Assembly: GCA_017560945.1 (NCBI GenBank)
Contig: JAFZDY010000048.1
Span: 1 to 49,044, forward strand
DNA: 49,044 bases
Direction of reading: 5' to 3'
From: Bacteroidaceae bacterium
GTDB taxonomy: Bacteria; Bacteroidota; Bacteroidia; Bacteroidales; Bacteroidaceae
The notes beneath the pieces are model-generated. The model had not been told where the DNA came from. It worked only from the letters and a program-made list of their open reading frames with translations, and did not search any database. Of this stretch, positions 34,048-49,044 are shown one piece after another. Both the position numbers and the translations under genes were made by a program. Numbering within the stretch: the first letter of the stretch is position 1; each line of letters begins with the position of its first letter.

Positions 34048-34086
34048 CAAAGATAGTGTTTTATTCACGATTTTCACCTATCTTTG
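34048..34086. promoter_or_regulatory. Divergent -7 boxes of the glycan locus
   Basis: TATCTTTG occurs on the minus strand at 34048-34055 (for the flippase/GT pair) and on the plus strand at 34079-34086 (for the three plus-strand GT genes). The boxes are identical, 23 bp apart and point outward. The minus-strand transcript would have a leader of only about 15 nt, and the plus-strand one about 27 nt. Clear -33 TTTG elements are not seen. Confidence 0.55.
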
Positions 34087-37327: not shown

Positions 37328-37358
37328 TTTGCTACTTTCAAAAAAAGCAGTACCTTTG
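37328..37358 (+). promoter_or_regulatory. Promoter of the tRNA-Asp genes
   Basis: TTTG (37328-37331), exactly 19 bp, then TACCTTTG (37351-37358): a textbook Bacteroidota housekeeping promoter. It serves as the internal standard for the other promoter calls in this window. The predicted start is about 58 nt before the first tRNA. Confidence 0.85.
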
Positions 37359-47983: not shown

Positions 47984-48045
47984 CCAAACTACAGAACTTT
48001 GGTCATCAAACTACAGAACTTTGGCTATCAAACTATAGAGGTTTG
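47984..48045. repeat. Palindrome set A, three units, 22-bp step
   Basis: CAAACTACAGAACTTTG at 47985 and 48007, and CAAACTATAGAGGTTTG at 48029: starts are exactly 22 bp apart. Each unit has CAAA(C) and (G/C)TTTG arms around a short centre. A different palindrome, GGTTC...GAACC, begins at 48051, again 22 bp on. Confidence 0.75.
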
Positions 48046-48075
48046 ATTAAGGTTCAATATTATTCGAACCAAACT

Positions 48076-48105
48076 CTCATCAAGCTACGCAAGTCAAGGT
48101 TCAAA
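48076..48105 (-). repeat. 30-bp segment shared with the window start
   Basis: The reverse complement of 48076-48105 matches 367-396 except at about two positions (core TGAACCTTGACTTGCGT). Both lie near ACCGGACA-type repeats, so the two window ends share a composite intergenic repeat. Confidence 0.6.
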
Positions 48106-48232
48106 AATACTATTGTTGTCTGGTAAACATCTATATGACTCTGTTTTTATCGATTTTACCGGACAGCAATTTCAATCAATTATCTCTAAATACACGAAAA
48201 TTAGCCTTAAAATATAGTATATTTCCCATTCT

Positions 48233-48311
48233 CACATATTGTGCAAGTTCTTTCTCACATTATGTGCAAATCGTCTTTCACATAGTGTGAGAATGCATTT
48301 TCACAACTGTG
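48233..48311. repeat. Palindrome set B, four units, 23-bp step
   Basis: Cores CACATATTGTG (48233), CACATTATGTG (48256), CACATAGTGTG (48279) and CACAACTGTG (48302) start exactly 23 bp apart. Flanks are TCT/TTT before and AGAAT or CAA after, and units 3 and 4 are longer palindromes ending TGTGAGAAT. Between units the sequence is not conserved. Confidence 0.8.
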
Positions 48312-48521
48312 AGAATAGTAATATATATAAATCATCATACTAAATGAGTGAGATTCTACCGATAATAAATATAGGTGTTTGATGTAAAAGAATTGGGGTA
48401 AAACCGTTGTGATAGTAAAAGGGTATAGTTAAAGATATACATAAATGGGTCGCCTCACATCGGGTACGAACCAGAATGCAATCTTTCAATGCTCCTCGAA
48501 CCTTTACTTTTTTTTAAAAAA

Positions 48522-48680
48522 AACTTAACACCCACAAAACACGTCCTAAGCCTCATCAGATAACGCTACAGCGTAATTTGATAATGCTTAAGCGAAAAGT
48601 TGGTAACGCTTAAGTGTTTTCATGTTTACGCTTAACCGTTATTTAATTACGCTTAAGCGATTTTTCATCACACTTAACTA
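48522..48680. repeat. Palindrome set C, about eight units, 21-22-bp step
   Basis: Core CGCTTAAGCG or a variant starts at 48522, 48543, 48564, 48585, 48607, 48629, 48650 and 48671 (steps 21, 21, 21, 22, 22, 21, 21). The unit at 48650 is perfect; those at 48585, 48607 and 48629 differ at one position each; the outer ones are weaker (AACTTAACAC, GTCCTAAGCC, CACTTAACTA). The array ends 166 bp before the first CRISPR repeat. Confidence 0.8.
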
Positions 48681-48846
48681 CTTGATAATCAATCACAGAA
48701 AAGGTGGTTTATTTCTATTTATTAGTGCATCAACCCATCCATATACAAACGTTAAATATAGACACATATCTGAAAGCCTTACTAAAAAACTTTACACTTC
48801 TTGTTTATATCAACAGAAGGAAATTGAACACATATACTTCAAACTT

Positions 48847-49044
48847 GTTGTGATTTGCTTTCAAATTAGTATCTTTGCAGAATAAAAGACAATTCCACCT
48901 GCATCATAATAATCAACTGTTGTGTTGTGATTTGCTTTCAAATTAGTATCTTTGCAGAATAAAAGACAATAAGGATGAGGAATATAACCGTTCAGTGTAT
49001 GTTGTGATTTGCTTTCAAATTAGTATCTTTGCAGAATAAAAGAC
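48847..49044 (+). CRISPR. Start of a type II-C-like CRISPR array (3 repeats, 2 spacers, runs off the window)
   Basis: Repeats start at 48847, 48924 and 49001, a 77-bp period: 47-bp repeat and 30-bp spacers (48894-48923 and 48971-49000). The third repeat is cut by the window end after 44 bases. All repeats are identical. The repeat opens GTTGTGATTTGC, contains AGTATCTTTGCAG and ends AAAAGACAAT. From memory, 47-bp repeats opening GTTGTGATTTGC are typical of Bacteroidota type II-C (Cas9) loci, and a GTTGT start is the tracrRNA-pairing end, so transcription is probably left to right. No cas gene or anti-repeat is visible in the window. Confidence 0.93.
48848..48877 (+). promoter_or_regulatory. 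Promoter-like signal inside each CRISPR repeat (first copy)
   Basis: Within the repeat, TTG at positions 2-4, 19 bp, then TATCTTTG at positions 24-31 reproduces the spacing of the tRNA-Asp promoter here (TTTG, 19 bp, TACCTTTG). Predicted transcription starts near repeat position 38, about 10 nt before the spacer. The same signal recurs at 48925-48954 and 49002-49031. Functional use is inferred, by analogy with Neisseria type II-C repeats. Confidence 0.5.

Follow-up and report, generated by a model that had tools for sequence, protein, structure and literature searches.

The 47-nt repeat of a type II-C CRISPR system in a Bacteroidaceae genome carries an eight-letter box, TATCTTTG, that is probably a promoter element. 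Judging from the sequence, we consider it likely that such repeats consist of two parts: a segment from repeat position R1 to about R24 that would pair with the tracrRNA and a 3' part in which the -7 box would start transcription in each repeat. The box lies outside the pairing segment, recurs in other repeats of the phylum, matches the promoters of its own genome, and belongs to a 3' half that is retained where the 5' half has been lost.

A CRISPR array at the right end of the window

The window (the whole 49,044-nt stretch of DNA that was analyzed) is the entire contig C47 of a genome of 2.35 Mb (57 contigs, 82% complete). At its right end, three copies of the 47-nt repeat GTTGTGATTTGCTTTCAAATTAGTATCTTTGCAGAATAAAAGACAAT begin at positions 48847, 48924, and 49001 and are separated by 30-nt spacers (period of 77); the third copy stops after 44 nt at the contig end. 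The 47-nt consensus was settled jointly with a second array of the same genome. As originally predicted, TTG (R2-4) is followed by exactly 19 bp and then by TATCTTTG (R24-31) in all three copies. The features are as follows:

48847..48893, + strand: CRISPR repeat 1, 47 nt, first of the array, intact
48848..48850, + strand: TTG (R2-4) of repeat 1, proposed -33 box, within the tracrRNA-pairing head
48870..48877, + strand: TATCTTTG (R24-31) of repeat 1, candidate -7 box of a sigma-ABfr-type promoter
48894..48923, + strand: spacer 1, 30 nt
48924..48970, + strand: CRISPR repeat 2 (TTG at 48925-48927, TATCTTTG at 48947-48954)
48971..49000, + strand: spacer 2, 30 nt
49001..49044, + strand: CRISPR repeat 3, partial at the contig end (TTG at 49002-49004, TATCTTTG at 49024-49031)
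48001..48846, + strand: 5' flank of the first repeat, without TAnnTTTG on this strand
37329..37358, + strand: tRNA-Asp promoter, used as a yardstick (TTTG at 37329-37332, N19, TACCTTTG at 37351-37358)

No external promoter of the TAnnTTTG type was seen before the array on the + strand of 48001-48846. The same flank contains two adjacent 65-nt arms, 71% complementary, with short palindromes around CGCTTAAGCG (48547-48676, ~170 nt before the array), and an AT-rich segment (48223-48321) in which TTCTCACA and TGTGAGAA elements recur.

cas genes, second array, and tracrRNA

No cas genes were seen beside the window array. They are located on contig C22 (locus L007), which carries cas9 (1458 aa; TIGR01865 match, 460.6 bits), a PDC-S05-like gene, a type II-kind cas1 (cas1_NMENI), and cas2; as in type II-C systems, csn2 and cas4 are absent from the operon. 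The window array belongs to this type II-C system, with cas9, cas1, cas2, and the tracrRNA on the other contig. The gene between cas9 and cas1 (L007:8420-9424; 334 aa) matched the PADLOC candidate PDC-S05 with an E value of 9e-150 and had no NCBIfam match; we take it to resemble RhuM-type genes.

A second array on C22 has the same repeat, lies on the minus strand, and reads towards cas2. Its first repeat has lost R1-19 and has kept TATCTTTG and everything 3' of the box. The convergent gap between cas2 and this array holds an inverted repeat, AAATCCCGC-CAAAGT-GCGGGATTT (L007:10720-10750), which by eye resembles a two-way terminator.

An anti-repeat located 5' of cas9, in divergent orientation, pairs with R1-24 of the repeat, and a candidate promoter of the tracrRNA itself, TATATTTG, stands 12 nt before it. 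The box adjoins this pairing segment and lies outside R1-24. That TATCTTTG is conserved through tracrRNA pairing is highly improbable, as pairing ends by R28 in 35 of the 52 long-repeat loci with an accepted anti-repeat, at R23-26 in 22 of these, and at R24 in this genome. The other 17 alignments, gapped or mismatched and in some cases doubtful, extend past R28 and would favor pairing, as would the near-whole-repeat pairing that is possible in 36-nt repeats of other classes.

The box and the promoter language appear to go together as a tendency: in the host class, TAnnTTTG lies within 25 nt of the anti-repeat at 10 of 13 loci with TATCTTTG repeats versus 7 of 21 loci without (anti-repeats ending by R28). 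Within 40 nt before the anti-repeat, it is present at 5 of the 17 class loci that have 36-nt repeats and an anti-repeat.

Match between the box and the promoters of the host

Comparison with the host's promoters supports the identification of TATCTTTG in the repeat as the host's own -7 element. The Bacteroides housekeeping promoter, as given in excerpts of the source, has a -33 TTTG and a -7 TAnnTTTG (PMC7366714); an excerpt concerning F. johnsoniae reports the -7 element only. The repeat contains the -7 TAnnTTTG of this sigma-ABfr promoter and resembles the published promoter in both box sequence and spacing, here inside a CRISPR repeat. Its -33-like element, at a gap of 19, is TTG and not TTTG, doubles as part of the pairing head, and is not kept in eroded copies (see below).

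Promoter counts for this genome were made over 398 kb with the arrays masked. TTG-N19-TATCTTTG occurs 7 times with both strands summed, i.e., ~1 per 114 kb of strand. The gaps between TTG and TAnnTTTG have their maxima at 19 (36 cases) and 20 (26 cases), with 16 cases at 18; the remaining 33 gaps between 5 and 40 average 9.6 cases (range, 2 to 20), and the reversed-sequence control has no gap peak (5, 2, and 4 cases at gaps of 18, 19, and 20). The pattern TTTGN{18,20}TANNTTTG was found 210 times versus 34 times for the reversed pattern (6.2-fold) in this genome and was 2.2- to 5.4-fold over the reversed control in the six other genomes searched within the host order. Outside the order, 37 genomes were searched, and the ratio was only 0.4 to 2.3 in 34 of them, G109 (355 versus 99) and G552 and G500 (11 versus 2 each) being exceptions.

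Upstream of tRNA genes of this genome, TA[CT][CT]TTTG is present within ~75 nt in 18 of 22 stretches (a set that includes L207, a stretch of just 69 nt within a tRNA cluster). CA directly follows the box in 17 of these 18, as it does in the repeat (TATCTTTGCA). The original prediction had likened the repeat to a tRNA promoter in the window, and the tRNA-Asp promoter indeed shares the geometry (TTTG-N19) but not the letters, its box being TACCTTTG and not TATCTTTG. The presence of the same box in the glycan locus was confirmed, with TATCTTTG at 34079 (+) and 34048-34055 (-).

Recurrence of the box in Bacteroidota repeats

Besides L007, the survey covered 139 cas9 loci of the phylum, taken from genomes above a Cas9 cutoff (65 of 395 sampled phylum-wide and 92 of 395 sampled class-wide). 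One of the 140 stretches obtained (G338, L023) was too short and was left out; among the 140 loci analyzed (the 139 plus L007), 39 gave no array passing the filter. The yield was 104 candidate arrays with 96 distinct repeats, and one low-complexity false array was taken out. Long repeats of the host class were represented by 52 distinct sequences of 44 to 57 nt from 27 families.

TATCTTTG is present in 22 of these 52 repeats, where shuffling leads one to expect ~0. In the tail from R18, it occurs in 21 of 52 repeats versus 0.08 in shuffled tails, and the looser motif TCTT[TAC][GA] occurs in 39 of 52 versus 4.5. Six of the seven host-order loci with an array have TATCTTTG, and the seventh has TATCTTAG. 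The exact box is absent from 30 of the 52 distinct long class repeats, and TAnnTTTG was found in none of the 20 class arrays with 36/37-nt repeats, a set that includes L125, probably a betaproteobacterial contig.

Among the 22 repeats, the box starts at R23 in 15, at R24 in 5, and at R17 and R26 in 1 each, with TTG-to-box gaps of 18, 19, 12, and 21, respectively. R18-22 and R32-45 are variable while the box is kept, displaced by indels; because of these shifts, MAFFT columns cannot align the box, and the shuffle test was used. Of the two features whose conservation the original prediction proposed as a check, the box recurs (22 of 52 repeats), and the exact 19-bp gap is not conserved, a gap of 18 being commoner (15 versus 5).

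Two further loci of the survey deserve mention. L140 has a 57-nt II-C repeat, the longest found, in which TTCTTTAAATTT stands where the box would be. L125 (G469:C28; also L217 and L218), on a contig of a "Bacteroidia" metagenome-assembled genome, has a cas9 sharing 99% identity with its counterpart in the betaproteobacterium Candidatus Desulfobacillus denitrificans (among the best 80 of at least 537 relatives). This contig is probably contamination or a very recent transfer.

Erosion of first repeats

New spacers of Riemerella are described, in the excerpt available for that genus, as entering at the cas2 side. Because II-C spacers enter there, the oldest repeat is the first one, at the 5' end of the array as transcribed. 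Its head pairs with nothing useful, since no spacer precedes it; the 3' half can be of use to the first spacer only by acting on the RNA of that spacer, e.g., as a promoter. We counted erosion in arrays of at least 3 copies whose 5' end lies at least 130 nt from an edge; the distance limit leaves out 14 of 61 long-repeat and 7 of 39 short-repeat arrays.

Across all classes, the 5' end could be assessed in 47 long-repeat arrays, of which 31 have an eroded first repeat; the other 16 were scored as having no erosion, a category into which erosion past ~R38 also falls. The loss ends at R3-22 in 29 of the 31 eroded first repeats (p 8e-6 if breaks fell uniformly across the detectable positions) and at R24 and R28 in the other 2. 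Per base, mismatch in the first copies of 45 arrays declines from 0.43 at R1-7 through 0.29 and 0.17 to 0.11 at R19-22 and is 0.01 to 0.02 from R23 onward; the last copies of 57 arrays are nearly free of mismatches. Among the eroded copies, mismatches are present in R23-31 in 3 of 32 and in R14-22 in 16 of 32 (Wilcoxon p 2e-4), the second array of L007 being counted in this 32-copy set only. Internal copies vary too little to be used (5 changes in 386 copies, all at R1-17).

The TTG is not kept. Among the 45 first copies, 20 differ from the consensus at R2, 15 at R3, and 25 at R4, as at the neighboring positions, and a TTG at a gap of 18-20 is found in none of the 8 eroded copies whose box is intact. 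A TTG at a gap of 17, 21, or 22 is present in 4 of these 8, numbers too few to judge replacement. Of the original proposal that every repeat carries a complete promoter, the -7 box holds up on the grounds of own-genome grammar, recurrence in long repeats, and 3'-half retention. The TTG as a needed -33 element finds no such support; it is part of the pairing head and erodes with it.

Arrays without TATCTTTG retain their 3' half just as strongly, 36-nt arrays show the retention too, and it extends to R46. The 3' half is therefore needed, but not necessarily these eight letters; among 10 eroded first copies from TATCTTTG arrays, 2 (L097 and L135) have a disrupted box. Within the 3' half that the downstream spacer needs, the sequence data point to the box as the best candidate.

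A control was provided by 38 Pseudomonadota arrays with Neisseria-like II-C repeats ending in GCTACAAT or variants. Their first copies have a mismatch of 0.23 at R1-7 and 0 mismatches at R28-36, the site of their -10 (38 copies), and the first repeat of one of them (L285) is worn down to little beyond AGCTATAAT. The control is of modest weight, since only 13 of the 38 are eroded, one of them beyond R16.

Within 200 nt upstream of the first copy, TAnnTTTG was found in 7 of 36 arrays with long class repeats versus 5 of 36 for the reversed sequence. In other classes, long repeats gave 1 of 9 versus 0 of 9; arrays with 36-nt repeats gave 2 of 17 versus 2 of 17 in the class and 0 of 14 versus 0 of 14 in other classes. 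Beyond one unit upstream of the arrays, the counts were 4 of 36 versus 4 of 36. An external leader promoter was rejected as a candidate, with TAnnTTTG absent from the window flank and unenriched in the flanks of other arrays.

Proposed mechanism and comparison with known systems

We infer a start of transcription at the box, followed by a tracrRNA-guided cut. RNA polymerase with the housekeeping sigma factor would bind TATCTTTG in every repeat. Start points lie ~5-7 nt downstream of a -7 box, and transcription would thus begin near R37, ~10 nt before the spacer. The RNA would begin with ~10 nt of repeat, continue through the 30-nt spacer, and extend into the head of the next repeat; this head would pair with the tracrRNA and be cut, presumably by RNase III, to yield the 3' end. 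In the host order, the TTG 19 bp upstream may contribute but would not be the conserved part. Because the predicted start precedes the spacer by ~10 nt, one would expect the 5' end to be either trimmed or extended. The earlier claim that the crRNAs would need no 5' processing is at odds with this start, which would leave ~10 nt of repeat in front of the 30-nt spacer.

Very probably, the repeat-borne promoter is a feature already known in type II-C, present here with a different signal at a different position. In Neisseria meningitidis, Zhang (2013) reportedly found a promoter in every repeat and short, processing-independent crRNAs, with RNase III not essential. The present repeat differs from that of N. 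meningitidis in sigma specificity and in the place of the promoter within the repeat. The Neisseria repeat promoters are also described in excerpts of a later source (PMC7038990, citing Zhang 2013).

Each repeat of the Campylobacter jejuni II-C array likewise contains a promoter (Dugar 2013, PMC3656092). According to excerpts of that paper, the C. jejuni system is, like the present one as proposed here, a tracrRNA-dependent minimal type II system with a -10-like element in the 3' part of the repeat and one crRNA per repeat. In C. jejuni, however, an extended -10 stands at the repeat end, the start is nt 5 of the spacer, and the guide is self-trimmed (PMC3656092), whereas here the 47-nt repeat has its -7 box at R24-31, and the predicted start is ~10 nt before the spacer. 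Such a pre-spacer start with 5' trimming would truly set this system apart from those already known. Independent evolution of the trick, as initially suggested, is not supported: Pseudomonadota and other II-C repeats have their -10 in the same repeat half, and inheritance followed by re-lettering is therefore no less simple an explanation.

Nor is the idea of repeat promoters new to the phylum, contrary to what the original prediction suggested. A TTG 33 bp upstream of each spacer has been proposed as a repeat promoter in F. columnare, where eight reads support an array direction towards the leader (PMC8092290), and the same TTG proposal exists for F. psychrophilum, in which TAnnTTTG was assigned to cas9 (PMC10309648). 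These Flavobacterium II-C arrays share with ours the phylum, the idea, and a TTG in the repeat. In the excerpts available, however, the proposals name only the TTG for repeats, and the 36-nt class repeats in our survey lack the -7 box. Excerpts of other sources report that a generic predictor found no promoters in Riemerella repeats, which speaks against the promoter reading (PMC5006608), and that B. thetaiotaomicron has no CRISPR array (PMC7366714). Within the literature on repeat promoters and TAnnTTTG, as available in excerpts, a TAnnTTTG located inside a CRISPR repeat was not encountered.

If the box acts as proposed, the guide RNAs of many Bacteroidales II-C systems would be made singly, per repeat, by the main promoter type of the host. 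Spacer order and leader strength would weigh less on expression, and the long 46-47-nt repeats might be accounted for. The TTG-only proposal for the phylum would be corrected, the informative element being the -7 box, which is absent from 36-nt class repeats. First-repeat erosion would offer a sequence-only search for repeat promoters in any phylum.

Descent of repeat tails, Cas1, and Cas9

Across 57 long-repeat loci, the similarity of repeat tails has a rank correlation of 0.34 with Cas1 identity and 0.03 with Cas9 identity, and Cas1 and Cas9 identities are uncorrelated (-0.04). On these data, cas9 and the cas1-array unit seem to have been exchanged separately, an independence perhaps made possible by the near-invariant repeat head. 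The presence of TATCTTTG takes 7 changes on the Cas1 tree (shuffled mean, 18; 0 of 500 shuffles as low) and 17 on the Cas9 tree (shuffled mean, 18.2). Since the tail tracks Cas1 and TATCTTTG clusters on the tree of that protein, part of the recurrence of the box reflects common descent of the cas1-array unit; integrase recognition may shape the repeat tail as well. Free loss of the box among relatives, which the original prediction regarded as counting against it, is not seen on the Cas1 tree, while on the Cas9 tree the box is unclustered.

Two candidate arguments were abandoned. On the Cas9 tree the box is scattered, which was taken as evidence against mere descent; the clustering on the Cas1 tree removed this argument. 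Host family was dropped as a driver of the tails: same-family tails remain more similar once Cas1 and Cas9 identities are accounted for (a level attained by 1 of 1000 permutations), but in the 17 same-family pairs with Cas1 identity of <0.62, the difference is slight (tail similarity, 0.534 versus 0.510).

The correlation of the tails with Cas1 and not with Cas9, together with the clustering of the box on the Cas1 tree, would fit a reading in which Cas1-Cas2 recognition at the leader-proximal end conserves the 3' half, box included, and the array is transcribed from outside. The entry of Riemerella spacers at the cas2 side, as excerpted, places R47 next to the leader and agrees with it. Nevertheless, we consider this reading unlikely. 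The 5'-terminal repeat, distant from the integration site, keeps R23-46 and loses R1-22; TAnnTTTG is unenriched before long class arrays, as counted above; and the box equals the host -7 element, including the CA that follows.

Still less likely is that the box is a functionless remnant inherited with the cas1-array unit through shared ancestry alone. The head shared by long repeats, the many loci without the exact box, and the Cas1-tree clustering would suit such descent, but the box persists at indel-shifted positions (R17, R23, R24, and R26) while R18-22 and R32-45 vary, and erosion reaches the box without passing through it in 29 of 31 first repeats. Moreover, descent alone does not account for letters that match the host -7 box with its CA.

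Returning to the repeat-borne promoter, we tentatively put forward the possibility of a two-part cassette. A near-invariant head (R1-23) would be readable by any Cas9-tracrRNA pair, and the 3' promoter half would be re-lettered to the sigma factor of the host and would travel with Cas1 and not with Cas9. First-repeat erosion might then serve as a natural promoter deletion map in any II-C array. Loci L064 and L061, from two families, have Cas1 proteins that are 95% identical, and their boxes read TATCTTCG and TATCTTTG, respectively.
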